In this document: one piece after another, positions 5,409 to 56,391 of the stretch
Position numbering within the stretch: the stretch's first letter is position 1
Layout: every line of letters starts with the position of its first letter
Virus record (IMG/VR): IMGVR_UViG_3300023274_000003
Span: 1 to 56,391 of that record
Reading direction: 5' to 3' (one strand)
DNA from: a virus
Length of the DNA: 56,391 bases
Program-made: the position numbers and the translations under genes
The notes under the pieces: model-generated
The model's database searches: none
What the model was told of the DNA's origin: nothing
Seen by the model: the letters and a program-made list of their open reading frames with translations, nothing else

Positions 5409-5589
5409 ATACTTGCTGCATTCCTTTTTCTAAAATCAAAGTGCCGCACAACAAAACCTCTCTTAATAGTCTATTGTAATAATCTTGTGGTATCGTTATT
5501 TGTCCGTCTGATTTTTGATAAGCCCTTTTTGAATACTCTGCTACAATCTTTAGCCTTTCATCAAATCTGATAATTTCTTCTTGTGTCAT
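5407..5589 (-). CDS. Hypothetical small protein, 60 aa
   Basis: The helical, charged protein has 60 residues beginning MTQEEIIRFDERLK. It is the last gene of the minus-strand run and ends inside the bidirectional terminator at 5374-5408. No family is recognised. Confidence 0.55.
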   Translation of the reverse strand: MTQEEIIRFDERLKIVAEYSKRAYQKSDGQITIPQDYYNRLLREVLLCGTLILEKGMQQV

Positions 5590-5628
5590 TTTGTTCTAAT
5601 ATGTTTTTAAATATAGTTGATTAATTAT

Positions 5629-5961
5629 TTAAGAGTCTGCCCATATTCTAGCATTTGGGTAAATTTCGCAAGCCTCTAAATATTCTTTACAAAAACGAAT
5701 CAAGTCTTTTCTTTTACCCCATCCGTTAGTAGCATTAAACTTGTCATATTTTTCAGCATTGGATTCAAGTTCTAAAATGCCTTTTCTTAAAGGTGAAATC
5801 AAATCTTTAGCCGTTACGCTTTTACTTAACGTCTCTGGCCTCCAGAGGACATGATACAATTCGGAAACAATAGCCATATCAATTAAATTGTTTGTAATGT
5901 TTCCAGAATAGAGGACTTCATCATCAAAATCTACTCTAAATAAAGTTACGTCTAAGCTCAT
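5629..5961 (-). CDS. Conserved phage hypothetical, 110 aa
   Basis: The segments MSLDVTLF, ITNNLIDMAIVSELYHVLWRP, DLISPLRKGILELES and ATNGWGKR follow the pattern of a widespread small phage protein of unknown function that usually begins MSLDV. Length matches that family. It lies in the minus-strand early run. Confidence 0.7.
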   Translation of the reverse strand: MSLDVTLFRVDFDDEVLYSGNITNNLIDMAIVSELYHVLWRPETLSKSVTAKDLISPLRKGILELESNAEKYDKFNATNGWGKRKDLIRFCKEYLEACEIYPNARIWADS

Positions 5962-5974
5962 ATTCGTAGTTTAA

Positions 5975-6238
5975 TTATTTGTCTAATATTTTGAGTAAAG
6001 CGAAGAAATCTTCTTTTGAAGACGGAATAATAAACACTTCTTCTGGCTTGCCTTTCATGGGGACTACTTTCAAACGGCTATAAAGTGCCGGAATGGAAAT
6101 ATATTTATTGCTATTTTGGGGGTTCAAGAAAGTTTCTCTTCTTGTATAGCTATTAAAGGAGAGAGGTAAATATCCTTTTTGGCTCATATACTCCTTAACC
6201 CATTCTTCGGCTTGCTCTTTTGTAGCATATTTGTTCAT
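5975..6238 (-). CDS. Hypothetical protein, 87 aa
   Basis: The protein has 87 residues, starts MNKYATKEQAEEWVKEYM, and has a Tyr- and Pro-containing middle. No membrane segment or known motif is seen. Its ATG overlaps the stop of the upstream 127-aa gene by 4 nt. Confidence 0.6.
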   Translation of the reverse strand: MNKYATKEQAEEWVKEYMSQKGYLPLSFNSYTRRETFLNPQNSNKYISIPALYSRLKVVPMKGKPEEVFIIPSSKEDFFALLKILDK

Positions 6239-6618
6239 TGCGTTATCGTGTTTATGTCGATGGCTTGACCGCTGGGGATTAAGTTAAAGACGTCGAAGTG
6301 TTTTGAAATCAAATACACAACAACATCGTATGGAAATTTATTAACAGGTTTCTTTCTAATAAACCCATCTAAAATATCATATTGTGTTAAACTGTAAATC
6401 TCCTTACATTCTTCTACTGTCAAGTCTTTCATTGGTCGGAGAATAGGCTTTATAACTACGTATCCCACCATTTTATTAACTCCTAATGCACTATTGATAG
6501 TAATTGTGTCGTTACTAGGGTATTCGTCAATAGATAATTCCAAAATCTGTATAGGCTCTCCTTCATGTATAAGCCTCAACCCATAAGGCAAGTAAACTAC
6601 TAAGTTTTCTAGTTTCAT
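6235..6618 (-). CDS. Conserved phage hypothetical, 127 aa
   Basis: The N-terminal segment VVYLPYGLRL and a middle VVIKPILRPMKDLT match a protein family frequent in Bacteroidota phages in which a YLPYGL motif precedes a PILRP motif. Function is unknown. It is translationally coupled to the 87-aa gene downstream. Confidence 0.65.
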   Translation of the reverse strand: MKLENLVVYLPYGLRLIHEGEPIQILELSIDEYPSNDTITINSALGVNKMVGYVVIKPILRPMKDLTVEECKEIYSLTQYDILDGFIRKKPVNKFPYDVVVYLISKHFDVFNLIPSGQAIDINTITQ

Positions 6619-6644
6619 GTTGTTAGTTGGTTAATCTGCTTGAA

Positions 6645-7133
6645 TTAAATACCTAACTTTTCTTTAATTTTCTTATCGGCTTTTGCATTGATACGGTCTT
6701 CGATATTTTTATCGGTCAGTTGGTATTCAATTTTATCCGCAGCAGAGTTGATAGCATCAATAACTACTTTCATTGTAGAATTAATTTTAGACTCTGCGTT
6801 GGCAATGATTTGCGGTTTGTCTGACAAAAGTTCTGTAACGGTGTCGTTAATTACCTTCTTTATGTCAGAAGATATTTCTTTTGCTATTAAATCTTTTACT
6901 TCGTTTCTCAACTCCCATGCTTCGTAATGTCTATTTTTAGGTTTAAAAACAAGGAGTTGCATTTCCTCTTTAATCTTTGCGTCTACTATTTCTCGTGTTG
7001 TCTGATTAATAGTAGCCCCAAGCCATTTTTTAGCAAATGCTGCCGCAACGCTTTGACGAACATCAAATTCTATTTGTGAATCTCCATTTAAAAGACGTTC
7101 TAATGCTGCTAAACTGTTGATTTGAATTTTCAT
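6645..7133 (-). CDS. Conserved phage hypothetical, 162 aa
   Basis: The protein starts MKIQINSLAALERLLNGDSQ and continues with a helical, charged body. The opening (NSLAALERLLNGD...FDVRQSV..AFAKKWL) resembles a family common in Bacteroidota phages. An upstream in-frame ATG at 7163 would place the start inside the terminator-like hairpin, so ATG 7133 is chosen. The gene directly follows kissing-loop RNA copy 2. Confidence 0.65.
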   Translation of the reverse strand: MKIQINSLAALERLLNGDSQIEFDVRQSVAAAFAKKWLGATINQTTREIVDAKIKEEMQLLVFKPKNRHYEAWELRNEVKDLIAKEISSDIKKVINDTVTELLSDKPQIIANAESKINSTMKVVIDAINSAADKIEYQLTDKNIEDRINAKADKKIKEKLGI

Positions 7134-7145
7134 AGTATTATTAAA

Positions 7146-7243
7146 TAAAGAAACCAGTCCCAAAAGATGCGAGGCTTTCGAAACTGGTTCTTTGGATTTT
7201 GTCGGTTAAGACAATTTCTTGTATCTGCTCGCATTCAGATATT
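7146..7243 (-). ncRNA. Kissing-loop RNA, copy 2
   Basis: On the minus strand, hairpin 1 (7222-7241, stem TATCTG/CAGATA) has the 8-nt loop AATGCGAG. Hairpin 2 (7147-7193) has an outer stem GAACCAGT/ACTGGTTTC, an inner stem AAAG/CTTT and the 8-nt loop CCTCGCAT. ATGCGAG in loop 1 pairs perfectly with CTCGCAT in loop 2 (7 bp). TTTCTTTATTT follows hairpin 2. The promoter at 7248-7277 puts the RNA start at hairpin 1. Predicted length is about 95 nt. Confidence 0.8.
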
Positions 7244-7247
7244 AACA

Positions 7248-7277
7248 CAAATATACTCTTAATTCTTAATATTCCAA
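7248..7277 (-). promoter_or_regulatory. Promoter of kissing-loop RNA copy 2
   Basis: On the minus strand TTG (7277-7275), a 19-bp spacer and TATATTTG (7255-7248) match the consensus exactly. The start is predicted near 7242, at the first base of hairpin 1. The promoter overlaps the end of the 53-aa HTH gene. Confidence 0.8.
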
Positions 7278-7427
7278 ACCTTCTTTACGAAAGAATTGAT
7301 AAATAGTGGCAGGGTTTCTATTTAATAATACAGCTATTCTATTGCCTGTATATCCTTGAAAATATAGCTTAATGATTAAAAGTTTTTCTTCCTTTATCAT
7401 TCTGTAAGGTTTACCTTCTCTGGTCAT
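7266..7427 (-). CDS. Small helix-turn-helix protein, 53 aa
   Basis: The gene encodes MTREGKPYRMIKEEKLLI followed by a predicted helix-turn-helix (FQGYTGNRIAVLLNRNPA, then TIYQFFRKEGL), similar in pattern to resolvase-type or sigma-like DNA-binding helices. The ATG overlaps the stop of the YopX gene as ATGA. A regulator role is inferred from the fold only. Confidence 0.6.
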   Translation of the reverse strand: MTREGKPYRMIKEEKLLIIKLYFQGYTGNRIAVLLNRNPATIYQFFRKEGLEY

Positions 7428-7768
7428 TTTTGCATAAGTTCTGGATTGTCATAAATATTACCAACAATCGTGCAAGAGTCGGACAAAACAGCTTCTTGCA
7501 TTAAGTAGATTGCGTTTTCAAATTCAATCTCTATTAACTCTTTCCCGTCGCTCCACTTATCCACAATGTCACCTTCATAAATACGGTTTTCGCCTTTATC
7601 TTTTAATCCGATATATTGACCTACCGTTTCTGGATATACTTCATATTTAACTCCAGCATTAAACGTGCTGACTATGTAATATATACCACCGATGGTAATA
7701 GTTAAGCTACCAATAGCCCAACTTTCGTTTTCCTTTCTTTTACCTCTGAATTTAATTTCTCTTTTCAT
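7424..7768 (-). CDS. YopX-family protein
   Basis: The N-terminus MKREIKFRGKR and the segments VGQYIGLKDKGENRIYEGDIV and IVGNIYDNPEL are the signature of the YopX family found in phages of Firmicutes and Bacteroidota. Length of 114 residues fits. The biochemical role is unknown. It overlaps the next genes on both sides in a tightly packed early operon. Confidence 0.88.
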   Translation of the reverse strand: MKREIKFRGKRKENESWAIGSLTITIGGIYYIVSTFNAGVKYEVYPETVGQYIGLKDKGENRIYEGDIVDKWSDGKELIEIEFENAIYLMQEAVLSDSCTIVGNIYDNPELMQK

Positions 7769-8003
7769 CTTGTATTTGTTGTTTAACTGTGGCGATTGCT
7801 TCCTTTAAAATCTTAATTCTTGCGTCCTTACCAGTTGGAAGTTGTTTTGAAGCTATTTCAAAAAGAACTATCAACTCTTCTGTAAAATCTAATTCGTGAA
7901 CATAAAGGAAATAATGATAATAACCCTGACAGATAACTCCACACCATTTTTCATAATCCGCTAAAGCTTGTTCATAAATCTCTAACTCCTGTTCTTTTGT
8001 CAT
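7752..8003 (-). CDS. Hypothetical protein, 83 aa
   Basis: The 83-residue acidic helical protein starts MTKEQELEIYEQALADYEKW. The pattern resembles a common small phage protein that precedes YopX-like genes. It overlaps the YopX start by 17 nt. No catalytic residues can be assigned. Confidence 0.6.
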   Translation of the reverse strand: MTKEQELEIYEQALADYEKWCGVICQGYYHYFLYVHELDFTEELIVLFEIASKQLPTGKDARIKILKEAIATVKQQIQDEKRN

Positions 8004-8173
8004 TGCTTTAATAGGTTTTGTAGGTTTTTAATAAATTGTCTCAAACATATTCTACGTTCATAGAGTTGTACTTCTCTTGTTGAGCCAATTTGTAATTTGG
8101 CTATTTCTACGCCTAGTATTTTTATTTCCTGTTCGTAACTGTTAATGAGTTCTTTTATTTTATTTTCTGTCAT
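8000..8173 (-). CDS. Small coiled-coil protein, 57 aa
   Basis: The gene encodes 57 residues (MTENKIKELINSYEQEIKIL and a basic C-terminal half) with heptad-like spacing of Ile and Leu. The stop overlaps the next ATG as ATGA, which supports it as a real gene. Function is unknown. Confidence 0.55.
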   Translation of the reverse strand: MTENKIKELINSYEQEIKILGVEIAKLQIGSTREVQLYERRICLRQFIKNLQNLLKQ

Positions 8174-8177
8174 GATT

Positions 8178-8363
8178 TTAATACTCGCTTAATGAATCTA
8201 ATATATTAGAAAATCTGCCTTTATTCTTTATGTCGTTTTCTATCCTAATACAAGCAAGAAAATCATTTTCTTGCTTCGCCTTTTCAAGTTCTAAAGTCTG
8301 TTCTATGATTTCTTTTCTATAAATATGAATAAATACCTCTATCTGTTTTTTTATTTTTCTCAT
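8178..8363 (-). CDS. Hypothetical coiled-coil protein, 61 aa
   Basis: The product has 61 residues with alternating Lys and Glu (EQTLELEKAKQENDFL), probably one long helix. No family is recognised. It lies 4 nt upstream of the 57-aa gene. Confidence 0.5.
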   Translation of the reverse strand: MRKIKKQIEVFIHIYRKEIIEQTLELEKAKQENDFLACIRIENDIKNKGRFSNILDSLSEY

Positions 8364-8376
8364 GTTTTTAATTATG

Positions 8377-8580
8377 TTAATAGTGCTTGCTGAATTGAAT
8401 TGCTTCTAGGTTACTGCCTACGGTGTCAAATGGTATTCTACAAATAGAATTTACAATTTTAGTTCGTTCCTCCTCGAACTCTTTAAAGTCTGAAATTGTA
8501 CCATTATCGCCAGCATTGTAAATAATAGAGGCTAGATATATTCTAATTGCTCTAACACGTTGCCTTTTAGTTAATTTCAT
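8377..8580 (-). CDS. Hypothetical small protein, 67 aa
   Basis: The protein starts with the basic segment MKLTKRQRVRAIRIYLA and continues with acidic residues. It is soluble and helical in appearance. No motif is recognised. Confidence 0.5.
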   Translation of the reverse strand: MKLTKRQRVRAIRIYLASIIYNAGDNGTISDFKEFEEERTKIVNSICRIPFDTVGSNLEAIQFSKHY

Positions 8581-8638
8581 TGTATTGAGTCTTTAAATTG
8601 TTTTATTGAAAGTATAGTATCGAAATTCTTTTCTTTTG

Positions 8639-8758
8639 CTACAACGTAATTGCCGTGTTTGTTGCAAGCGGATCGTTTTGATTCAAATAATCCACGACTA
8701 TCTGAAATTCTTCTGAGCCATCATTAAAGACAGCCCAGCTATAAGGGAGTTTGTTCAT
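8639..8758 (-). CDS. Short protein, 39 aa, similar to N-terminus of the 18491-18940 product
   Basis: The product MNKLPYSWAVFNDGSEEF continues to 39 residues. The pattern LP....VxNDGSxxFxxxVxxxLN matches the first 26 residues of the 149-aa protein at 18491-18940. The ATG overlaps the methyltransferase stop as ATGA. It is either a truncated paralogue or a short family member. Confidence 0.5.
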   Translation of the reverse strand: MNKLPYSWAVFNDGSEEFQIVVDYLNQNDPLATNTAITL

Positions 8759-9393
8759 GTAAATAAATTTTCTTGTTTAATAATTGGAACATCGAATAAA
8801 GGCATGGCTATTTCTTTTTGAAACCTTGCGTTCCCATCCCTGAAGTAATCTTCATCTATTTCAAAGCCCCAGAAATCAAAGCCTTTTTTATAGGCAGCAA
8901 TACGGCTTGATTGGGAGCCTAAATGAGTGTCAAGGATTTTATCTCCAATTTTAGCATAATTTTTTATTAGCCAATCGTATAAAGCTCGAGGCTTCTGGGT
9001 TGGATGAATCTTGTTTTTTTCGTCTTGAACTGATTTTCTAAATATTTTATTCGCACCATCGAAAGATGTCCATGCAAAGTCGAACATTCCGAAACTTAGT
9101 GCTTCAGGTTGCATCTTATCCCAAATTACACAGTGCTTAGTTGGGGGAAGTGCGTAATAATTACCCCCCCAAATAATTTGATTTTTTGAAACTCTAAATA
9201 ATTCATCGAAGTAATTCATACTTATAGGCTCGTCGTCCCAGTTTTTGGCTTTTAATCCCTTATCTGTTACCAATCTTGGACTTTTTCCTATTCCTATTCC
9301 AAACTCTGGATCCACAATAGCCAAATCGAAAAACTTATCAGGGAATCTTTTCATGCCTTCGACACAATCTGAATTAAATACTTCGCTTATCAT
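8755..9393 (-). CDS. Adenine-specific DNA methyltransferase (D12/N4-N6 type)
   Basis: The 212-residue protein has the catalytic-loop motif IV as DPEF (residues 28-31) near the N-terminus and the SAM-binding motif region DTHLGSQSS late in the chain, preceded by HPTQKP. This is the permuted order of many phage N6-adenine or N4-cytosine methyltransferases. The segment YFDELFRVSKNQIIWGGNYY is typical of the phage subfamily. The motif has Glu where most enzymes have the second Pro of DPPY. It probably protects phage DNA from restriction. The target site cannot be read from sequence. Confidence 0.88.
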   Translation of the reverse strand: MISEVFNSDCVEGMKRFPDKFFDLAIVDPEFGIGIGKSPRLVTDKGLKAKNWDDEPISMNYFDELFRVSKNQIIWGGNYYALPPTKHCVIWDKMQPEALSFGMFDFAWTSFDGANKIFRKSVQDEKNKIHPTQKPRALYDWLIKNYAKIGDKILDTHLGSQSSRIAAYKKGFDFWGFEIDEDYFRDGNARFQKEIAMPLFDVPIIKQENLFT

Positions 9394-9426
9394 TATCTTA
9401 AAGATTTAGATGGTAAATTAAAATGG

Positions 9427-9618
9427 TTACTTAATAATAATTTCATTGCCCATAACTGGTTCAATCTGAATTGTGCATCTTTCTTGATGAAACTTATTTA
9501 TCACTATTTCACCAAACTTGTTTTCTGAAATTCTAAACTCTGAACCTAAGTCATTGTAAACTTTTAGATAGGTACATTCAACTGGTTCTTCTTGGGCTCT
9601 GTTAGTTTTGATTGTCAT
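9427..9618 (-). CDS. Hypothetical protein, 63 aa
   Basis: The 63-residue protein looks beta-rich (VECTYLKVYNDLGSEFRI) with no Cys cluster or membrane segment. It lies between DnaB and the methyltransferase in the minus-strand operon. No family is recognised. Confidence 0.55.
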   Translation of the reverse strand: MTIKTNRAQEEPVECTYLKVYNDLGSEFRISENKFGEIVINKFHQERCTIQIEPVMGNEIIIK

Positions 9619-14135: not shown

Positions 14136-14296
14136 ATCTTTATCTGTTTAATTTTTCCACATTTCTTACAAATCAAAGTGTGTTTACATTCGTAAGGCAA
14201 TCCATCATCTACGTCAAACTTTCTACTTGTGTGATATGTGAGCCAGTCGTGACTACACCCTAATTTCCCTAATACTTTCTTTATTAAATCTTTCAT
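14132..14296 (-). CDS. Small zinc-ribbon-like protein, 54 aa
   Basis: The gene encodes 54 residues with GCSHDW, ECKHTLICKKCGK and a basic end. The spaced Cys and His residues look like a zinc ribbon. It overlaps the downstream gene as ATGA. Its 5' leader resembles the leader of the methyltransferase gene at 14320-14856. Partner and function are unknown. Confidence 0.6.
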   Translation of the reverse strand: MKDLIKKVLGKLGCSHDWLTYHTSRKFDVDDGLPYECKHTLICKKCGKIKQIKI

Positions 14297-14319
14297 AAGT
14301 ATATCTCTATATGATTATA

Positions 14320-14856
14320 TTATAACTTGTCTTTTATTTTGCCTAAAATATTTATTCTATCTTGTGAAACTTCTTTAAGACCTTGTCTTGTCTCAAATAT
14401 TACAATCATTGAATCGTGCATTCCTGAGTTCTTAACGCTTTCCATGCCTTCAGGCACTTTCCATCCGTTTTGATTATAATTAACCGCTTGTCCTTTGGTA
14501 TTTATCCCTACAAATGGAATACGACCCTCAACGAACCTGATTAATTTTGCATTTATCTGAATATGCTGTTGAAATATATTTGTGCTAGTCGATACTGGTA
14601 AAAGCATAACACAAAGTTTGCCTTTTTTGCTTTCTTCAATAGCCTTCATAATAAACGCTTCTTTTAGCTTTCGAGAGTAAGGCGGATTAATAAAGTTTCT
14701 TTCTTTCCATTCAATTTTCAAGCCGTCTTGGTGTGTCTCTGGATTGTATTCATAAGGGCATGGGTCGAAATTAAAGTCAAACTCCTTGTTTAATTCGTAA
14801 TAGAATCTTGCTGGAGTAGCCCAGTTGTCACTATGTGGTAAGTTTCTGTCTTTCAT
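14320..14856 (-). CDS. Phage Dam-type N6-adenine methyltransferase
   Basis: The 178-residue protein contains DNWATPARFYYELNKEF near the N-terminus, FDPCPYEYN, and the catalytic motif INPPYS (NPPY at 57-60). This matches the short phage DNA N-6-adenine-methyltransferase family (PF05869-like). Length is close to the family norm. The phage thus carries two unrelated adenine methyltransferases. Confidence 0.9.
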   Translation of the reverse strand: MKDRNLPHSDNWATPARFYYELNKEFDFNFDPCPYEYNPETHQDGLKIEWKERNFINPPYSRKLKEAFIMKAIEESKKGKLCVMLLPVSTSTNIFQQHIQINAKLIRFVEGRIPFVGINTKGQAVNYNQNGWKVPEGMESVKNSGMHDSMIVIFETRQGLKEVSQDRINILGKIKDKL

Positions 14857-14891
14857 AAGTATATCCCAATTTGATTATTATACATTTCTAA

Positions 14892-15206: not shown

Positions 15207-15274
15207 ATTGGTATATATTTTAAAATTATATGCAATAATATAAATAAAGTATTTAACAAACAAATTATTTTATG

Positions 15275-15282
15275 TATATTTG
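15275..15282 (+). promoter_or_regulatory. -7 promoter box of tnpB
   Basis: TATATTTG lies 4 bases before the tnpB ATG at 15287, with no well-spaced TTG upstream. Transcription would start at or next to the ATG and give a nearly leaderless mRNA. Confidence 0.5.
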
Positions 15283-15286
15283 TGTA

Positions 15287-16384
15287 ATGAAAGTTTTTAA
15301 AACATATAAGTACAAGCTAGGTCTTTCCAAAGTACAATCTAATCAGGTTGATAAGTGGATTGGTGCATGTAGGTATGTTTATAATTTGGCTTTAGAATGC
15401 AAAATTGAAGCATGGAAGAAAAGGGTTTCGGTGTCTAAATTTGACTTAATAAATCAATTGCCATCGTTAAAAGATGTGGACTGGATAAAATCCGTTCCAT
15501 CACAAAGCCTTCAAGATGTAGTTGAGCGTTTAGATAAAGCCTATCAAAGCTTTTTCAAGGGTGGAGGATTCCCTAAATGGGCAAAAAGGGGAGAGTATAG
15601 TTCAATATTATTTAAGACTGTCTATGTGAAAGATAGTGAATTTGTCCTTCCAAAACTCGGGAAGGTCAAGGTCTATAAAGATAGAATGCCCAAAGGCAAG
15701 TTAAGTGTGGCAAAGATAACAAAAGAAGCTAACGGCTATTTTTTATCAGTAACTTTCGAGTCTGAATCAGAAAACCTCTATCCTACCGACGAGAACCAAG
15801 TAGTAGGCTTAGATATGGGTATAACATATTTTTTGACTGATTCAAATGGTGTTTTTGTTGACAATCCACGTCATACAAAAAAGTATGAAAGGAAGTTAAG
15901 AGTAAAAAACAGGGCATTAGCACGGAAGAAAAAGGGTAGCAATGGTTTTAAGGAAGCTAAGAAACAAGTTGCTAAACTTCATTCTAAAATTGCCAATGTT
16001 CGCAAAGATTTTCTACATAAACTTAGTTTCCAATATGTCAAAGAAAATTCATTAATCGTGTCTGAGGATTTGAAAGTTAAGAGCATGATTAAGTTTGGTA
16101 ATCTTTCAAAGCACATTTCGGACACAGGTTGGTCAATGTTTTTTGATATGCTAGCATACAAAAGCAAGTTTTACGAAAAGACCTATGTAAGAATTGACCC
16201 TAAATTTACCTCTCAAAAGTGTAATTCATGCGGTCATACCTGCAAAGAAAACCGGATAACTCAATCAAAGTTTCTTTGTGTAAAATGTGGGCATAATGAA
16301 AATGCAGACTTTAACGCTGCTCAAAATATTTTAGGCAAGGGCATTGTCTTAGTTCGTCAACGTGAAACATTAGTTTGTGCGTAG
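15287..16384 (+). CDS. tnpB: TnpB, RNA-guided transposon-associated endonuclease (solo)
   Basis: The 365-residue protein (from ATG 15287) has a full TnpB layout: N-terminal OrfB helix-turn-helix domain, RuvC-I GLDMGI (Asp176), RuvC-II SEDLKVK (Glu260), a CxxC...CxxC zinc finger (Cys312, 315, 331, 334) and RuvC-III NADFNAA (Asp341). All catalytic and zinc residues are present, so it looks active. No tnpA transposase is near it. TnpB is guided by an omega-RNA from the element's right end and cuts targets next to a TAM. It has inserted between a ribbon-helix-helix gene and a truncated ORF. Confidence 0.93.
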   Translation: MKVFKTYKYKLGLSKVQSNQVDKWIGACRYVYNLALECKIEAWKKRVSVSKFDLINQLPSLKDVDWIKSVPSQSLQDVVERLDKAYQSFFKGGGFPKWAKRGEYSSILFKTVYVKDSEFVLPKLGKVKVYKDRMPKGKLSVAKITKEANGYFLSVTFESESENLYPTDENQVVGLDMGITYFLTDSNGVFVDNPRHTKKYERKLRVKNRALARKKKGSNGFKEAKKQVAKLHSKIANVRKDFLHKLSFQYVKENSLIVSEDLKVKSMIKFGNLSKHISDTGWSMFFDMLAYKSKFYEKTYVRIDPKFTSQKCNSCGHTCKENRITQSKFLCVKCGHNENADFNAAQNILGKGIVLVRQRETLVCA

Positions 16385-16410: not shown

Positions 16411-16435
16411 CAGACATTTCTCTTAGCTCTTTCAA
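16394..16435 (-). pseudogene. Truncated ORF start next to tnpB
   Basis: From TTG 16435 this reads MKELREMSDILQL then stop. The 29 bases upstream (16436-16464) closely match the leaders of the genes at 14132 and 14320, including ATATxCCAATTTGATT. A conserved leader in front of 13 codons that stop near the tnpB edge suggests the 5' end of a gene cut off by the tnpB insertion. Confidence 0.4.
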
Positions 16436-16513
16436 AGATATATGCCAATTTGATTGTTGTAATGTTCTCTTAACTCTAATCTTTCTAAGGTAGAGTATTC
16501 TAAATTCTGTCTT

Positions 16514-28290: not shown

Positions 28291-28298
28291 TATATTTG
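28291..28298 (+). promoter_or_regulatory. -7 promoter box of kissing-loop RNA copy 4
   Basis: TATATTTG lies 4 nt after the stop of the zinc-ribbon gene. The predicted start (about 28302-28305) is just before hairpin 1 of the RNA. No TTG is found at the usual distance. Confidence 0.6.
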
Positions 28299-28302
28299 TT
28301 TA

Positions 28303-28389
28303 ACAGTTCATTTGAAAAAGGTAGGATGTTTTCAAATGGAAATAATCACCTTTTAAGCCTTGCCAAATCCTACTGGTCAAGGCTTTTTA
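28303..28389 (+). ncRNA. Kissing-loop RNA, copy 4 (no gene downstream on the same strand)
   Basis: Hairpin 1 (28307-28340) has a perfect 10-bp core CATTTGAAAA/TTTTCAAATG and the loop AGGTAGGATG. Hairpin 2 (28355-28385) has AAGCCTTG/CAAGGCTT, an upper CCA/TGG stem and the 8-nt loop AATCCTAC. GTAGGAT (28321-28327) pairs perfectly with ATCCTAC (28367-28373). TTTTT follows. The next plus-strand gene is 1.3 kb away, so this copy reads as a free small RNA of about 87 nt or an operon terminator with extra structure. Confidence 0.85.
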
Positions 28390-36198: not shown

Positions 36199-38415
36199 AT
36201 GGCAGGACTAGGCAACTTTACATTAACCGTTGGGGTAGATACTTCAGCATTGACAAGGGGCTTAGCCAGTGCATCTTCACAACTTACTGCCTTTGCCTCT
36301 AGGGCTGAATCAACAGGAACCCGACTATCTCTTGCAATCTCTACACCTTTAGCCCTTTTAGCTAAGAGGGCTATTGAGTCGTATGGTGAACTAGAAGCCC
36401 TTCGTATGTCTTTACGTACAGTAGAAGGGTCAGCCGCTAACACAGCCCGCAGACTAGCCGTATTAAACGAAGTAGCTAAATTGCCAGGGGTAGGCTTTAA
36501 AGAAGCGATTCAGGGTGATGTCAGACTTCGTACGGTCGGGATAAGTGCTGACCTTGCCAAGCGTTCGATGATGGCCTTTGGGAATGCGATTGCGATTGCC
36601 GGAGGGGGTAAAGCGCAATTTGAATCGGTAATAAATCAGTTGACACAGATGTCCACAAGGTCAAGTGTGCTGATGGAAGATTTAAAACCAATCACTACCG
36701 CCGTTCCTGCCGTTTCACGGGTTCTTCAGCAGCTATACGGTACGATTGATACTGAAGTTATTTCGGCTAAGCTGAAAAAGACCGGAACCTCTACCAAAGA
36801 GTTTATTGCGCAGATAACGGCCGAACTGGAAAAGCTACCACCAGCTACGGGAGGTGTAAAGAATGCGATTGAAAACTTAGGCGATAGCGTTTTTAAAACC
36901 TTTGCGCAAGTAGGTGAGACTATCAACAAGAATGTTGGTGTAAAAAACTGGCTTGATAGTATTGGAAGTTCTTTAGAAGAAGCGGCCAGTGGCTTTGCCA
37001 GATTATCCCCTGAGGCACAGAAAGCTATTTTAGCTATAAGTGCCGTAGCAATCGCTTTACCTCCTTTTTTACTTTTAGCCGGAACGATTCTTCCTGCCTT
37101 ACAAACGGGCTTTTTAGCCTTGCTAAGTCCCATCAATCTGGTAGGAGTTGCTTTAGGGGCTGCGGCAATTTACGCAGTTTCCCATTGGAACAAGGTTGAA
37201 GATATTATCTACCGGATAAAAACTAATTTTCAAAGAACTCTGGCTGACATAGGTTTAGGCATTGCGGGAGTATTAAGAGACACAGAAGGGGCGGCTGACA
37301 TTGCCAGTGCATATGTTAAAAGCAGAGGAATTAACCCTGAATCGCAACGAGACGCTTCGGCGCGTGGGCGTTTCATGTACAAAAAGGGGGGGCAACAGGA
37401 TTTGGCTAATTTAGCCCGCATCAAGCAGGAAGAAGAAATAGCTAAAAAGCAAAAAGACATAGCCGCCTCCGCCTCGTCAGTCAGCACAAAACAGGAACAA
37501 GACAGAATAAAAGCCATTAAAGATTTGTCTGATAATCTATTAAAAGACAGACAAAGGGCAGAGGTAGAAGCAATAGCTAACAAGGCTGAAAGGGCAAGGG
37601 CTGGCGCGCAAATGCAGTACAATGAAGAAGTAAAAGCGTATGCTGACTCTATCAATGCTTTAAAGGCAAGTGTAGCAGAGAAGAAACCACTATGGGAAGG
37701 GTATACACAATTTGTTATAGCAAAAGACAAGGAGTTAAAACAAAAACTAAGAGAGAACGACCTACTATCGGAGTTTACCAGTAAGCCATTAAAGAGTATT
37801 GGTTCAGACGATAATTCTAAAGATACCCAAGCCCGTATTTCAGCCATTATGGGTATCTCTCCCGATGGCGTAGATAAATACGCCGTTTCTCTAAATCAGC
37901 GCATGAAAAACGCTGCCAAGTACCTACAGGAACAAGGGGAGAGCAAGATGGATACTAATAATCTTGAACAGTTTTTAGGACTAGCGGAAGGAACAATTAC
38001 GGGGGATACTTTTGCTAAATATGCTGAACAGGCTAACATCTTAATAGATGCCAATCAGCGTATTAAAGAAAGCTTTCAGAACATGGCAGCCGATTCGTTA
38101 GCCTCGCTTTCGATTGTGGTGGGGGAGATGATAGCAGGAACGGCTACAATTGAAGATTTAGCCAATACTTTACTTTCAAGCATATCCCAATCTTTAGCGC
38201 AAATAGCTAAACAAAATATTCTAATCGGACTATTCACGGGTAACGTGGGCATGGTAGCACAAGGCGTATTAGCCGGAATAGGGGCAGGTATTACCGGCGG
38301 ACTTGCCAAGAAACAACAGCAAAATCAGCAAAACTCACAAGGAAACAGGACAGTAGTCAGGGGTCAGGAAATAGAAACAGTCAGAGCGAGGTACGATACG
38401 ATTAAAAACTTTTAA
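36199..38415 (+). CDS. Tape measure protein
   Basis: The 738-residue protein has MAGLGNFTLTVGVDTSALTR, a typical tape measure start, long Ala/Lys-rich helices, a hydrophobic central segment (about residues 275-320, KAILAISAVAIALPPFLLLA) that may insert in membranes, and a Gly/Ala-rich C-terminus. Length is short for the class, suggesting a tail of around 110 nm by the usual 1.5 Angstrom per residue. Its stop overlaps the next ATG as TAATG. Confidence 0.92.
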   Translation: MAGLGNFTLTVGVDTSALTRGLASASSQLTAFASRAESTGTRLSLAISTPLALLAKRAIESYGELEALRMSLRTVEGSAANTARRLAVLNEVAKLPGVGFKEAIQGDVRLRTVGISADLAKRSMMAFGNAIAIAGGGKAQFESVINQLTQMSTRSSVLMEDLKPITTAVPAVSRVLQQLYGTIDTEVISAKLKKTGTSTKEFIAQITAELEKLPPATGGVKNAIENLGDSVFKTFAQVGETINKNVGVKNWLDSIGSSLEEAASGFARLSPEAQKAILAISAVAIALPPFLLLAGTILPALQTGFLALLSPINLVGVALGAAAIYAVSHWNKVEDIIYRIKTNFQRTLADIGLGIAGVLRDTEGAADIASAYVKSRGINPESQRDASARGRFMYKKGGQQDLANLARIKQEEEIAKKQKDIAASASSVSTKQEQDRIKAIKDLSDNLLKDRQRAEVEAIANKAERARAGAQMQYNEEVKAYADSINALKASVAEKKPLWEGYTQFVIAKDKELKQKLRENDLLSEFTSKPLKSIGSDDNSKDTQARISAIMGISPDGVDKYAVSLNQRMKNAAKYLQEQGESKMDTNNLEQFLGLAEGTITGDTFAKYAEQANILIDANQRIKESFQNMAADSLASLSIVVGEMIAGTATIEDLANTLLSSISQSLAQIAKQNILIGLFTGNVGMVAQGVLAGIGAGITGGLAKKQQQNQQNSQGNRTVVRGQEIETVRARYDTIKNF

Positions 38416-41400
38416 TGGCATATACTACTAAATACATTGCACAAGCCTACGGGCTTTCTTCTACCCCCTGGCGGGTTGAATTACTGGTAGATGGATACGA
38501 CGACGACCCTATCCAGTTGGATTTGGTTGAAAACGGCGTTCTGATTGGTTATGACCGTGAAGAAAACCGTTTCAATCCTATCTATAGCAGGTATGCGATT
38601 ATTTCCCTAAAAGTTACGGGTGTATTTAATTTAGACACCCTACAGTTTGATGATGAACGCAAATTCCAGGTCAATATCTATAAGGATAATAGTCTGGAGT
38701 TTGTTGGGTGGTTAGTGCCTTTTTACTCTACTGAAGCCTTCGAGGATACCTCTATTACGACCTTAGATGTAATGGCTAAGGATACGATTAAACAGTTGTC
38801 GAATGTAGATTTTTACAACCAGTACCCCGAACGTATTAGTAACAAGCAGTCGTTTAAGGAAGTAATCAGTCTTGGGTTAAAAGAATTAGGCTATCCCTTA
38901 TATCTGGAAATCTACTATAATAAGTACGATGTTGCGATGTATAAAGAGGCGATGGACTGCCCTTTGTCTCAACTGTATTTTGATATTTACCGCCTGCAAA
39001 ACGAAGACGGAACATGGATGAACTTTTATGAGTGTATCCAGTTGCTACTCGCTGAGCATGATTTAAGATTATTTCAGGCACAGGGTAAGTGGATTATTAT
39101 TTCCCCGATTGAAGTAGTAGACGGCTCGGTATCAGGTAGAAGATTTGAACCGGAATATGGGTTCTATATGTCTACAGTAACCCTTGATACTAATCAGCTT
39201 ATTCATAAAGGCGGACTACCTATTAAAAGAAATGCCGTTAGAAGAAAAGATATTCCTATTCAGTCCTTTACGGGGATGTACGAATATGGACTACTTTCTA
39301 ATCTGGTTTTAAACGGAGACTTGCTACGGTTTACAGGAGACACCCCCGACTACTTTACTAAAGGCGGCGACTGGTCGGAAGGCGAATTAACCGATATTGT
39401 TGGCGGGGGAGTAATGATTGACCGTACTTACATACGTAAACTGTTAGAAATCCCTACCGAAACTGCACCCGACCCTATTCTCTTGAAGAATCAGTTTCTT
39501 ATCTCTGACCAGATAGATATCACTTCCTTAACAGCCCTTAGGTTTAAGGCTGATGTGTACGGCGATGATGATATAGACGAAATAAGAATAGCCCTTAGAA
39601 TGACTAAAACCTCATCGCCTGGGGCTGTGTTTTATGTAGACGGTGCGGGAAATGTATACAACGTTCCGATGTCTATTTATGTACAGAAAGGAACGGAAAA
39701 CAAAGCCTTTTCGATTGATGTATCGTGGAACAGGGAAGACCCTGCCTTTGATTTTAACCTTCGTTATGCCAACGTTTTAGAAATTATCCTTTATCCTGGC
39801 ATAAGATACCGGACAGGTGAACCTTCTAATTTACACGTAAAATTCAGAAACTTAGAATTAACCGGAACGCCGTATGTATATGACGCTAATTATGTAGGCA
39901 GAAAATACCAGTACACCAATACGGATTTACCTCACTCTAAAAAAGAAGAGGTATTCAACTTCGGTTTTCAGGACAACGTTATAGACACGCTGTCAGACTT
40001 CAAGTTAAGAAGTAGTATGTTTGTGGGGGAGACTATTATCAAAACCACCCAATGGAAAAGAACTACTGAATCTACTTATAGAAGCCTGATAGAATCAGTT
40101 CTGATCGACAGATTAGTGCTGACTTCAAGGTTTGGTGACATTTTAGAGGCAAGTATTAAAGGGTATCTGAGTTTCTTTCAGACCCCGCAACTAACGGTTG
40201 GCAGTAAAAGATTCCTGATTTTATTCGCCGAATACAACCTTCAGGACGATTCTACCGAAGTCGTTTTAACCGAACTCTATACCAACGAAGTAGATGTTTC
40301 TTATAAATTAATCGACGTATTTAAGGATAAGGAAATAGATGTAAGCGACGGAACGAGTACCTCACAAACAGGAGTAGGGGAGAATTTCGACCCGCCAATT
40401 ACTTCTAAGGGGGGAGGAACTACGTATGGAGGTCTTTACCCGGACGGAGGAATTGATTCGCTCCCTAGCGACACAATCGACCCTAAAGCAAAGAACCCGG
40501 GCAAACTTTTAATCGGCAGGGCGCATGCATTATTATTGGAATTGGGAAACCTTGATAGCCTGACTAAGATTTTCGGGCGTTTTGGACTCCTGAATGAAGA
40601 TAATTTTTTAGGGGAGTTCAAGACCGCCGGAATTACTTCTGATCGGGAGTATACCTTCCCTGATAGAGACATAATTATAAATGATTATGACTATTTAGTC
40701 AATACGCCCGACTTTTACCCTCCTTTAGTAGATGGAACAGCTAACCATCTGGTTAGATTCGGGGCAATGGGAGATGCATTAGTAGATTCATTAATTATTG
40801 ATACAGGAACAAATGTAGGCATAGGTAGTTTGTTTAATATTGACCCTATTACGGGTGGATTAGTAGGAACATCGGCAGAATTTACTACACTAAACGTGCT
40901 GAACACTTCGACCTTTAACGATACGGCAACTTTTGAGAATTATATCTTATTGCCAGACTTACCAACCGATCCTTACCATGCAACCAATAAAGCCTATGTC
41001 GATTCTTTAGCCTTTGTAAAAAGAGGGGACACGGTAAAAACGATTGCATTAAGCAGTGTTACCAAGTCAGGCACGCAGACAGTTTCAGGATATGCTTTAA
41101 GCGCAGGCGAATACGTATTATTAACGAATCAGGCAAGTCCGGCAGATAATGGCGTATGGGTAGTAGCTAGTGGGGCATGGTCACGTTCCACTACGGATGA
41201 TTCAGATGCTGAAATCAGGGGGGCTTATCATTATATTACTGACGGGACTTATGCCAATCAAAGATATATAAATACCAATACATCAGCCATTACCCTCAAT
41301 ACGACCCCGATTACTTACGGGATAGACTTTGGGGCAGAAACCGATCCGGTATGGACGGCGTTTAAGACCACTAACGCGATTACCAGTACCTCGGTAACCC

Positions 41401-44400
41401 ATTGGAACGATGCTTATAGCTGGGGCGATCATGCCGATGCGGGCTATGCTTTGGCGACTAGAACGATAACTATTAATGGAACCAGTGGACAAATTGCCAG
41501 TTCGGCAAGCAGCCAGGATTTAAGTGCAAACCGTACATGGACATTAAGTTTAATAGCTACAGGCGTAACGGCCTCGACTTATAAAAGTGTCACAGTTGAC
41601 ATTTACGGCAGAGTAACGGCCGGAACCAATCCGACTACACTCGCAGGCTATGGGATTACAGACGCCTTGCCTTCCACAGCCATTAACGGCACAATAAATC
41701 AGGTAGCTAAATTTGCTTCTTCTGATAGCATAGAAGATTCAAGTATTACTTCGGTAGGTGCAAGTGTGGGGATTAACAGATCGTCGCCTGATTCCTCTTA
41801 TGCCTTAGACGTGAACGGTTCTGCATTGCTAGGCGGTGCTTTAATAGGTAATTCGTCTTTAGGCGTAGGGATTGCAAACTACTTAGGGACTTCTCCCCGC
41901 ATCGGGGCGATTGGTGGCACGAATCTTGATTTTAATTCTCCAGCTAATTACGTATGGTACACAGGTGGGGGTACCGAAAGGTTCAGGTACGATTCAAATG
42001 GTTTTAAGGTTGGAACGGCAATTAACCCCAGTAGTTTAATCGTTGTAGGAAACGTAGAATATAGCGGTCTCTTATATGTAGGCTCCACGCCGTCAAGTGG
42101 AACCAACGGACAATTCTTAAAACGCGTGGCAACATCCAACGCATGGGCAAATTTAGCTATTTCTGATGTGGCAACTTTGCAAACATCATTAGACGGAAAG
42201 CAACCCTTAGACGGCGATTTAACAGCTATTAGTGCTTTGAGTTCTACGGGATTTCTAAAGAGAACGGGTACGAATACATGGGATTTAGATTCGTCTACCT
42301 ATCTTTCTGCTTCATCCGGCACTACCAACAAAGTTGCAAAGTTTACATCGTCTACGGCACTGGGGGATTCCAGGATTACTGATAACGGAACGTCAGTGGG
42401 AATAGACAAATCCTCGCCCGATGCGGGGTTTGCTTTAGATGTGAACGGGGCAATTCTAATGACTGGATCGGTATCAGGAACAACTTCATTAGGCGTTGCC
42501 ATAGGGAACTACTTAGGTACTACGCCAAGAATCGGGTCTTTAGGCACGCACCTTACTTTCAACTCGTCTGGAGACTATATCTGGTATACTGCGGGGTCTA
42601 TAGAAAGATTCAGATACGATTCAGGAGGTTTTCAGGTAGGAACCGTTACCAACCCCTCTACGATTTCAGTAACCGGACAGTTATCGTATACAGGATATTT
42701 ATACACCGCTTCTGGATACGGCACAGATGGGCAGTTTTTAAAACGTACTTCGTCTTCTAATGCGTGGACTGCTATAGGGATTAGCGACGTAACGTCTTTG
42801 CAGTCCACCCTTGACGCAAAACAGCCCCTAGATGGTGACCTTACCGCTATTGCTGCTTTATCTACCGTAGGGTTCGCTAAACGTACCGGAACAAATGCGT
42901 GGGCAATAGACACAAATAGCTATCAATTGCTTGATGCTGACCTTACCGCTATTGCCGCCCTTACAGGTACAGGGATTCTTAAACGTACCGGAACGAATAT
43001 ATGGGCATTAGATACGGGTACTTATCTTACATCTACGGGTACGGCTAATTATATCTCTAAATTCACCTCTTCGTCGGCTATAGGGAACAGTGTATTATAC
43101 GAAGACTCTGGAAGTATAGGTATTAACGCTACAACCTTAACCGGATATGCACTTAGAATTACCAAAGACTTTCCGACTTCTACATCATACGGGATAAGTG
43201 TAGAGGGATCAGCTACAGTAGCCTCAACAAATGCTTATGGATATCATAGTGCGCTAGGTTCTGGTGCAGACGGAAACCCTACAAATTTAAGACACTTTTA
43301 CGCTACCCAGTCCCCCTTAGTTGGTGCAATTCAAAATCAGGCAGGATTCTATGCCGGATTAAGTTTGGTAGGGGCTACTAATAATTATGGATTTTACGGG
43401 AATATCCCTATCAGTGGCAATTCATGGAATTTGTACATGGCAGGAACAGCTAATAACTACCTGAACGGGAATCTATGGATAGGCACTACTTCTTCGACCT
43501 ATAAATTAGACGTAAATGGTACAGTAAGAATTACGGGGGCTTTTGAACTTGATTCTACCCTGATAGATACAGCTAACAGCGCAGGTGCATCTGGATATGT
43601 TTTAAGTTCAACCGGCACGGGTACTTCGTGGATTAATTTAGCTACGATTTATCAACCCCTAGACGGTGATTTGACGGCAATCGCCGCTTTATCAGCCAAT
43701 GGATTTGCCAAGCGTACAGGCACTAACACATGGACAATTGACACAAGTAGTTATCTTCCTACGTCATCGATAAGCGGAACAAACAACCGTGTAGTTAAAT
43801 TTACTTCAGCTACTACGATAGGGGATTCGCAGATATTCGACAATGGAACGACCGTAGGGATAGGCAGAGGAAATTCTCCTGATACCGGATTTACACTCGA
43901 CGTGAACGGGCCTATATTATCAAGTGCCGCAGTGTACGGGTCTACTTCGTTAGGTGTTGCTATCGGACTTTATTTAGGCGTAACGCCCAGAATAGGCAGT
44001 ATAGGGGGGACTACATTAGATTTCAATTCGCCCGCAAATTACATTTGGTATACAGGCGGCTCTACTGAAAGATTCCGTTATGACTCATCAGGATTTAAAA
44101 TAGGGACAACGGGTAATCCATCGACACTAACAGTCGTAGGGACTGTATATTACAATGATTTGCTGTACGTTGGTAGTTCGCCATCGTCAGGGACTGACGG
44201 ACAGTACCTAAAACGTACATCGTCTTCTAACGCATGGGCTAATATAATTATAGGGGATGTCACAGGGCTACAAACCGCCCTTGATGCTAAGCTATCCGGC
44301 TCTGGCACCACTAATTATTTGCCAAAATATACGGGTAGTCTTGTATTGGGGAATAGCCTTATTAATGACAATGGAAGTGGTATAGGAATTGGCACAACTG

Positions 44401-47400
44401 CCACCGCCGGACGTGTTTTGTTGATTACACAAGCGATAACCGGGAACGTACAGTCGTATGGCACGTTAATCTCCAGTGAAATTCAATCAGGCGTTACAAC
44501 GTCGGTTGATTATTTCAGAACAAGCACAAGCACTCAAGCCGCATCTTTTACGCTTGGAAGTCTTACGCACTATCATGCATTGCAGGGCGTATTCGGTGCT
44601 GGAAGTAGTGTAACGAGTCAATACGGCTTCTGGGTAGATTCCTCCATGACTGGAGCGTCTTCAATCAATGCCGCTTTCAGAGGGTCATTAGCTAAATCTT
44701 CTACTACATGGAATACTTACATGGACGGTGCCGCTAATAACTATATGGCAGGCTCTTTGGGTATTGGCTCTGTAGGTTTGACACAGTTTAATTTGCGTAT
44801 CAGCAAGATTATCACAGGGAACGTTAATAGTTATGGTGTATATAACTCAGGGGATGTGCAAGCGGATGTAACCTCTAGTGCGAGGTATTTTAACACGGCT
44901 GTAAGTACGCAGGCAGCTAGTTTTGGGTTGGGGGCGATATATCACTATTCGGCAACGCAAGGCACTTTTGGCGCAGGAAGTACAGTATCTGACCAAATCG
45001 GGTATTATGTGGATAGTACATTGACTGGGGCTACGAGAAATTACGGATTCTACGGGAGTATAGCGTCCGGCACCGATAGATGGAATTTGTACATGGCAGG
45101 AACAGCCCATAATTACCTGAAAGGTAATTTGTGGATAGACACCTTATCAAGCTCATACAAACTTGACGTAAATGGCACAGCAAGAGTAACGGGGGCTTTT
45201 GAACTGGACTCTACACTAATTGATACGTCAAATAGTGCAGGCACATCTGGATATGTTCTCACCTCAACCGGAACAGGAATCTCATGGATAAATGGGTCTA
45301 CCGTATTCCAGCCCTTGGATGGTGATTTAACAGCTATTGCAGCCCTTTCTACTAATGGATTTGCTAAGCGGACAGGCACAAATACATGGACGATTGACAC
45401 AAATAGTTACCTACCCACTTCGTCTATCGCAGGGACAAATAACCGTGTCACTAAATTTACTTCAACATCTACCATAGGAGATAGTCAGATTACGGATAAC
45501 GGCACCAGTGTAGGGATTAACAGAACAAACCCCGATGCGGGGTTTGTTTTAGATGTGAACGGGGCAATGCTTACCAGCGGTTTTGTTGTTGGTACGGTTT
45601 CGCTAGGCATCGCAATAGCAAATTATTTAGGCACTACCCCAAGGATAGGTAGCTTGGGCGGAACAACCTTAGAGTTTAATTCGCCTGCCAATTATATTTT
45701 CTACACAGGGGGTAGTACCGAACGATTCAGGTATGATAGTTCTGGCTTCCAGGTTGGAACAGGGGCTAATCCGTCTCAGATATCAGTAAAAGGCGATATT
45801 GTCTACAACGGACTTCTTTATGCTGGCAGTTCGCCCTCTAGTGGCAGTAGCGGGCAATTCTTAAAAAGAGGGGCTTCTACGAACGCATGGGCAACTATGT
45901 CCATTAGCGACGTAACGTCTTTGCAGACATCACTGGATGCTAAGTTAAGTATAGCTAATATTAATTCGTACCTATACCCTCCTGCCTCACACACGCATAC
46001 GATTTCTGACACAACAGGTTTGCAAACAGCATTAGATAATAAGCAACCCCTTGATGGAGACTTAACATCTATTGCTGCATTGACCGGAACGGGTTATGCC
46101 AAAAGGACAGGCACTAACACATGGACAATTGATAATAGTTCATTCGCCTTATCTTCGTCTATATCCGGCACTACCAACAAAGTTGCAAAGTTTGTCTCGT
46201 CTACTACTATTGGGGATTCTATTATCACTGATAACGGGACATCGGTGGGCATTAATCAACCTTCCCCTAATTCGTTATACAAATTAGATGTAGGCGGCAG
46301 TGTCAAGGTAGACGATATGAATGTAGGAGAGTCGATATACTACCAAATGTCTATGTATATGGGGCCAGCCTTGAGTAATTATGCCCGAATTGCCACTGGT
46401 GCAGCTACTCTTGAACACTTAGCTACGTCTAATTTTACCTGGTCGTATTACAGCAGCGGGATTGTTCAGAAAATGAAACTTACCCCAACCGGGTTAAAGA
46501 TAGGCGCAGGGAATGCCGCCTATGGGCTTGATGTATCTGGCGACGTGTCATATAGCGGTCTTCTGTATGTAGGGAGTAGTCTGTCAAGTGGAACTAATGG
46601 GCAATTTCTAAAAAGAACCGCGAGTAATAATACGTGGTCTACGTTAGCTATCGCAGATACGACAGGACTTCAGGCTGCCTTAGATACTAAAGCGTCTCTG
46701 GTTGATTTTAATACACTTTGGGACGCAAGATGGACAACCACTCAAGCCGCAGGGGTCACTTTTGGCGGAGAGGTATTAATTTCAGGGGTATTATTGGTTG
46801 ATAACGAGGCAATAATTAACAATGATTTACAGGTAGGGGGGTTACTGGCAGGATTTAATGGATTTAACCTTACAGGGCACTTTAACGACAATACGGGGTC
46901 AGCAGGAACATCGGGCTATGTCCTTTCGTCTACCGGAACGGCTACTGCATGGATTAATCCAACTTCCAGTCTACTTACCGGATACGCCATAGGGGGGGAT
47001 ACCGCAATATCTGCGACTGATTCAATTTTACAGGCATTCCAGAAGGTGCAAGGTCAATTAAGTGCAAAAGTATCTGGAACGCTTAATTATTTACCAAAGT
47101 TTAGTTCTACCACTGCTATAGGTAATAGTATTATTTATGAAAATGGTGGGGTAGGAATAGGTACAACCTCGGTAACAGCCTACGGGCTGAGGCTAACAAG
47201 CAATATTACAGGGGGGCTTAGTGCCTATGGTATCGAATCAAGCGGACAGGTACAAACGGGAGTTACGACCTTAGCGTCTTATTTCAGAACGAGCGCATCG
47301 ACGATTACGGGATTTACCCTTACTACCTTAAATCACTTTTCGGCAGTACAAGGGACGCTGTCTGGAACCGTAACTTCGCAGATGGGATTTAGTGCAAATT

Positions 47401-56171: not shown

Positions 56172-56384
56172 TTATTTCAATTCAAACACATGAAAAACAA
56201 GAACTCCTCCCTGTATAGAATAACTGCCAATATGTACTAAGCCTGTAAAATTGGGGTATTTATGGCCCGTGCCAATAGTAAAGAAAGTTCTCTTTTCTTT
56301 ACTAGCATCAGGATTAACTATTGCCCATATGCAAGGAGTATCGAATTGAGTTTGAAGGCTTATTATATTAGCACCCTTCGGCAT
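56172..56384 (-). CDS. C-terminal part of the DUF7352-like protein (junction copy)
   Basis: This 70-codon frame is the same gene as 1-179 read across the circular junction. The true start is at window position 179. Here the frame opens at an internal ATG only because the window ends. It is not a separate gene. Confidence 0.8.
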   Translation of the reverse strand: MPKGANIISLQTQFDTPCIWAIVNPDASKEKRTFFTIGTGHKYPNFTGLVHIGSYSIQGGVLVFHVFELK

Positions 56385-56391
56385 TCAATTA
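56260..56391. repeat. Terminal redundancy, right copy
   Basis: It matches 1-133 with one base deleted near the edge. See the left copy. It marks the circular closure of the assembled genome. Confidence 0.95.

Follow-up and report, generated by a model that had tools for sequence, protein, structure and literature searches.

A family of short phage RNAs with a covarying contact predicted between the first hairpin and the terminator loop

A short transcription unit on the minus strand of a Bacteroidota virus genome from IMG/VR (record IMGVR_UViG_3300023274_000003, analysed over its 56,391 nucleotides, hereafter the window) combines a promoter, a hairpin at the predicted RNA start and an intrinsic terminator whose loop is complementary to that of the first hairpin. 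This RNA element, called copy 2, is real and stands above chance expectation. Comparison with other phages gives good support for the view that it is one member of a family of phage RNAs of ~95 nt, a family that is real and apparently undescribed so far. Bacteroidota phages dominate gut viromes, and to our knowledge little is known about the timing of their gene expression. The element is compact, the comparative evidence is strong, and it occurs in the inducible gut prophage BI-TP1. It opens a testable question, namely whether contact between the first and the last hairpin of a transcript decides termination. Since the contact can be recoded as long as complementarity is kept, it would serve as an orthogonal switch for genetic tools in Bacteroidota.

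Two RNA units in one phage genome

The features of copy 2 and the position of a second unit, copy 1, are listed in Table 1. The promoter of copy 2 fits the −33/−7 consensus of Bacteroidota, TTTG/TANNTTTG, in which the G of the −7 element lies at −5 (PMC6847099). A preliminary description of this DNA had proposed a consensus promoter with TTG and a 19 bp spacing; TTTG-19-TATATTTG was indeed found on the minus strand, TTG (7277-7275) being contained in TTTG (7278-7275). The published −7 position predicts an RNA start at 7243, two bases 5′ of hairpin 1 (H1), which begins at 7241; this agrees with the start at about 7242, at hairpin 1, that had been put forward.

The 6-bp stem of H1 closes the loop AATGCGAG. 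A second hairpin (H2), absent from the preliminary description, lies between H1 and the terminator hairpin (H3). The base of H3 can be extended to 7193-7148 with one bulge, CTTTATTT follows the hairpin directly, and H3 is the sole terminator-like site detected within 5500-9500. The loops had been described as complementary over 7 bp, and this holds: ATGCGAG in H1 pairs with CTCGCAT in H3, the pairing ending precisely at the loop edges. ATGCGAG has two sites in the whole window, which are the two loops of copy 2. The minimum free energy (MFE) of the RNA, in a model that excludes the loop-loop (kissing) contact, is −29.6 kcal/mol (z = −4.5), and none of 200 shuffled sequences was equally stable.

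Table 1. Coordinates of the RNA units and neighbouring genes in the window
Feature	Position	Strand	Details
YopX-family ORF	7424-7768	−	same gene string, upstream of copy 2; also upstream of the RNA in G009
Helix-turn-helix ORF, 53 aa	7266-7427	−	immediately upstream of copy 2; 3′ end overlaps the −33 element
Bacteroidota-type promoter, copy 2	7248-7278	−	TTTG (7278-7275), 19 nt, TATATTTG (7255-7248)
Hairpin 1 (H1), copy 2	7222-7241	−	TATCTG-AATGCGAG-CAGATA; kiss strand ATGCGAG 7234-7228
Hairpin 2 (H2), copy 2	7199-7214	−	TTGTC-TTAACC-GACAA
Hairpin 3 (H3), intrinsic terminator, copy 2	7151-7190	−	16 bp, loop CCTCGCAT; kiss strand CTCGCAT 7173-7167
T-rich tail	7139-7152	−	TCTTTATTTAATAA; the short RNA is expected to end here
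162-aa ORF	6645-7133	−	start 7133, 18 nt past the GGTT end of the terminator stem; would be reached by read-through
Copy 1 of the RNA	28291-28385	+	TATATTTG 28291-28298; H1 from 28307

The existence of copy 1, implied by the preliminary description, was borne out by the unit on the plus strand. Its GTAGGAT (28321-28327) pairs with ATCCTAC (28367-28373), and its terminator hairpin spans 28355-28385. It has a competing H1 fold, and sits behind the gene that closes the first late block, opposite convergent genes, with no co-directional gene in the next ~1.3 kb.

Could such units be chance hairpins in AT-rich DNA? If a 7-bp loop match is all that is asked for, with short stems allowed, shuffled windows give about one per strand (mean 1.15), and a relaxed scan without the full promoter gave many chance matches and supports no claim. 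When promoter, stem and tail were all required, however, the window contained two units against a mean of 0.005 and a maximum of 1 in 200 dinucleotide shuffles. Further units were moreover found in unrelated contexts, with loops that covary, and we consider a chance origin extremely improbable.

Other features of the window were recorded in passing. An exact direct repeat of 126 bp is present at its ends (1-126 and 56260-56385), which suggests that the phage genome is complete in the window. A TnpB-like gene (OrfB_IS605, Cas12f1-like TNB) lies at 15272-16384 on the plus strand, with no TnpA seen nearby; close to it are three imperfect direct repeats of 41 nt (14289-14329, 14849-14889 and 16428-16468), which begin at the start codons of neighbouring minus-strand genes. 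An ORF of 4053 aa (38415-50576, plus strand) with many degenerate internal repeats is of unusual length for a 56-kb phage. Finally, two promoter-plus-terminator units without a kissing contact, both on the minus strand (54941-54810 and 53614-53540), are possible small RNAs, the latter running antisense to a coding gene.

Relatives and covariation of the loops

Searches by sequence failed because hardly anything except the architecture is conserved. No relatives of the RNA were found by blastn against phages and plasmids, patterns with fixed loops retrieved unrelated coding sequence only, without stems, and searches for kin through the capsid, helicase and L177-nuclease genes gave no useful result. 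Relatives were obtained in six other phage contigs by searches in which the loops were left free, and two units were added from BI-TP1 by means of a descriptor. In a first scan of IMG/VR, with promoter and H1 stem fixed, 14 matches were found, and in two of these the terminator loop contained 7-8 bp complementary to the H1 loop. A second scan, with TTTG and the terminator base fixed, yielded 62 distinct stretches; the same complementarity was seen there in L177 again and in four new units (L269, L193, L257 and L241/L232). The L178 unit was completed from its own contig (L281/L301 in G009). The terminator base AAAGAACC-GGTTTCTT belonged to one search pattern, and its presence in the members found thereby is no evidence of conservation. 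The family sample amounts to ~10 units, some of them from fragments.

The descriptor scan of named phages covered 743 kb from ten phages, some of them in part. It detected two units, A and B, in BI-TP1, an induced Bacteroides intestinalis prophage, and a single unit in LoVEphage, a close relative of BI-TP1. Between the latter unit and BI-TP1 A the changes are confined to leader and linker, helices and kiss being identical. BI-TP1 B is the weakest member listed, as the MFE prefers a nested fold using the kiss segments. The scan gave one further match, in phage PAU, but shuffled sequences yield such matches too (0 to 1 per shuffle). A three-hairpin candidate RNA of PAU (NC_019521, 26386-26303, minus strand), with a 6-bp loop match, lies in an intergenic gap and was not counted as a member. 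PAU codes for a relative of the 162-aa protein elsewhere. The Flavobacteriia phages phi18:1, 11b, P2559S, stinky9-1 and phi13:2, and the part of phi4:1 that was scanned, gave AT-rich chance matches only.

Family members have their own Bacteroidota promoter, a 5′ hairpin at ~+1 to +6 (in six of them its first base falls between +1 and +4 relative to the predicted start), usually a second small hairpin, an intrinsic terminator, and a covarying loop-loop match of 7-8 bp. The second hairpin is present in window copy 2, G008, G009, G010, G011, G012 and L269, and absent from window copy 1 and BI-TP1 A and B; in every three-hairpin relative it has 5-7 bp and a differing sequence. The H1 stems also vary yet stay paired (ATCTG/CAGAT, ATACG/CGTAT, GTAG/CTAC, GGT/ACC), and the same is true of the H2 stems and of most H3 stems. 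The kissing loops read ATGCGAG in window copy 2, (A)ATGAGAG in G009, AGTTGCGA in G008, GTTGCAG in L269 and G010, CCGCGAC in G012 and GTACGAG in G011. In the three-hairpin members the kiss occupies loop positions 2-8, the loop of G011 having 7 nt, and compensatory changes were found at all 7 kiss positions, with 2-3 pair types at each, all Watson-Crick. Within a member the two loops match over 6-8 bp, against a mean of 2.7 and a maximum of 6 between members. Pairs were counted element by element and not with a covariance model, as the members share so little sequence that MAFFT alignments misalign H3. We conclude that the predicted loop-loop contact is kept by covariation.

Genomic settings and possible roles

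In 6 of the 10 units (window copy 2, G008, G009, G010, G012 and L269), an ATG lies 14-22 nt past the terminator stem. This leaves no space for another promoter, so that only read-through can bring polymerase to the gene. Unrelated genes occupy this position: orphans of 162, 147 and 105 aa, a 48-aa ORF at the head of an operon, and genes for helicase-methylase proteins. In G008 the RNA is the leading element of an operon and the genes upstream are divergent.

The preliminary description had placed a conserved 162-aa phage protein right after the RNA of copy 2. The position was correct, with the ATG 18 nt past the stem; conservation is limited to a small scattered set, Sphingomonas phage PAU gp279 and 6 IMG/VR contigs, and the protein has no Pfam or PHROG match. 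None of these relatives has the RNA upstream, and the route by homology from this gene to kin of the RNA was dropped for that reason. In G009, which contains the closest relative of the window RNA, the same slot is taken by a 147-aa gene unrelated to the 162-aa gene. By comparative evidence, then, RNA and 162-aa protein do not form a fixed pair. The window and G009 both have YopX and helix-turn-helix genes before the RNA and a 127-aa gene after the next one, and differ in the gene directly behind the RNA despite these homologous flanks, which suggests that the RNA element works as one module on whichever gene lies behind it. An ORF of 34 codons (7230-7132, minus strand) runs from an ATG in the H1 loop of copy 2 to a TGA that shares bases with the start codon of the 162-aa gene. 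A leader peptide was rejected, as this reading frame is not conserved: it has 24 codons and ends inside H3 in G009, and other members have none or 11 codons.

The other four units (window copy 1, BI-TP1 A, BI-TP1 B and G011) do not abut a gene, and three of them are near phage repressor or antirepressor genes. BI-TP1 A is 32 nt from a divergent S24 repressor, that is, in the position of an early promoter; BI-TP1 B lies ~310 nt before a KilA-N regulator, and the RNA of G011 lies before an ANT-domain antirepressor gene. Behind BI-TP1 A, the interval from the S24 repressor to gp65 contains ~200 nt of non-coding DNA (L331, 2497-2720) that is rich in GC and apparently structured, with no Rfam match found. 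The two roles suggested earlier for the element, a separate RNA or a 5′ leader attenuator, are partly supported: comparison favours a real RNA element with a kissing contact, in a leader-like position in six units and free-standing in four, the attenuator function being an inference.

The explanation that we favour, with slightly less than even confidence, is a conditional terminator (attenuator) close to the promoter, which would also release a locked RNA of ~95 nt. RNA polymerase would start at 7243 and H1 would fold first; its loop would capture the emerging terminator loop, favouring closure of the terminator hairpin. Most transcripts would then stop near 7146 as short RNAs, the two ends of each being joined in a single rod, and the 162-aa ORF would be made only if polymerase reads through. 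Read-through would require that the kiss or the terminator be blocked, be it by an antitermination factor of the phage, by protein binding to H1 or H2, or by a loop that competes. Private kiss sequences would prevent cross-pairing between several units. By a rough geometrical estimate (29 stacked base pairs, ~80 angstrom, vs a linker of 31 nt with a small hairpin), the kiss can form within one molecule. In favour of this explanation are the covarying kiss, the ATG at 14-22 nt in six units, the leading place of the RNA in the G008 operon, the exchange of the gene behind the RNA between the window and G009, and the early-promoter position of BI-TP1 A. The four units without an adjoining gene count against a conditional terminator. 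No alternative antiterminator pairing was seen, and a closed terminator would still permit the kiss, whose role may thus be to stabilise the RNA instead of controlling termination.

The main alternative, to which we give appreciably less credit, is a free-standing small RNA acting in trans on phage or host RNA. The kiss would then hide the loop until a target or a chaperone opens the RNA, and read-through would be incidental or produce a second isoform, as in Gifsy-1 IsrK. For it speak the promoter and terminator that every unit carries, the absence of a gene directly after the RNA in window copy 1 and in both BI-TP1 units, and the immunity regulators nearby (the S24 repressor, KilA-N regulator and ANT antirepressor). 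A trans-acting RNA does not, however, account for the tight 14-22 nt spacing in six units, whose next gene can be transcribed only through the terminator, and as the loops vary between members a shared target is lacking.

It is also conceivable, albeit improbable, that the kiss is intermolecular: the short RNA would pair with the nascent terminator of another transcript of the same phage, for dose sensing or sequence-specific immunity, with the loops as specificity codes. The loop pairs are orthogonal, both from member to member and when the two copies of a single phage are compared, and two units adjoin repressor or regulator genes. Both loops are nevertheless in one RNA, the 31-nt linker suffices by the rough geometry, and pairing in cis should win.

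A stabilised terminator or insulator, in which the kiss has no regulatory part and only protects the RNA ends from nucleases or makes termination stronger, would fit the strong terminator stem and the fact that conserved sequence is limited to the promoter, the helices and the terminator base (the last being part of a search pattern). Such an unconditional terminator behind a promoter would yield the RNA alone and silence the gene whose ATG follows, and we judge this reading unlikely.

A broader proposal can be made, which we hold only tentatively: the units may represent a class of RNAs that is widespread in Bacteroidota phages. Pairing between the loops of the first hairpin and of the RNA's own terminator would serve as a code, private to each unit and diversifying, that decides on transcription of the next gene; each phage would have several mutually orthogonal copies, which would be exchangeable gates for accessory and immunity genes.

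Comparison with known RNA systems

No Rfam 15 family matched in the window, nor in eight loci with family members, and within 7100-7300 the matches were at chance level only (E up to 5). A metabolite riboswitch was rejected: conserved unpaired nucleotides for ligand binding are absent, and loops, linkers and stems all vary among members. Type III toxin-antitoxin loci (ToxI) consist of a promoter, a structured RNA, a terminator and an ORF of ~170 aa, a layout similar to that of copy 2. This class (ToxIN/CptIN/TenpIN) was discarded too, as 6600-7400 contains no direct repeat of at least 24 nt and no ToxN-type ORF was found: the 162-aa protein is without Pfam or PHROG match and the ORF differs among members.

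The order of promoter, short RNA, strong terminator and ATG is also that of the lambda PR′ - 6S RNA - tR′ region, where a short leader RNA precedes a strong terminator and expression of the next gene needs read-through. Antitermination by lambda Q uses a DNA site and a sigma-dependent pause, and we know of no kissing RNA in that system; a non-systematic look did not identify a Q-like gene in the window. The put RNAs of HK022 are structured nascent phage RNAs at the start of early operons, which prevent termination downstream and do not include the terminator. They resemble the present family in being structured nascent phage RNAs that govern termination, as proposed here, and differ in that the terminator of the family lies within the RNA. 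Loops of 7 nt that pair along their whole length are known from ColE1 RNA I/RNA II and from pT181-type attenuators, the contact being coupled to termination in pT181. There the partners are two antisense RNAs, whereas here both loops are in one RNA.

IsrK of the Salmonella prophage Gifsy-1 has its own promoter and terminator, with partial read-through giving short and long isoforms; it regulates by pairing alternatively with orf45 and affects translation in trans (PMC4825925). The likeness covers the promoter, the terminator and a gene that is reached only by read-through, as positional evidence suggests for 6 of the 10 units. The IsrK locus likewise contains an antirepressor gene, as does the vicinity of G011 with its ANT-domain gene. 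A covarying contact between the loops of the 5′ hairpin and the terminator is not described for IsrK in the part of the account considered here (PMC4825925), and a sequence match is absent. IsrK is the closest worked example of a trans-acting RNA with a read-through isoform.
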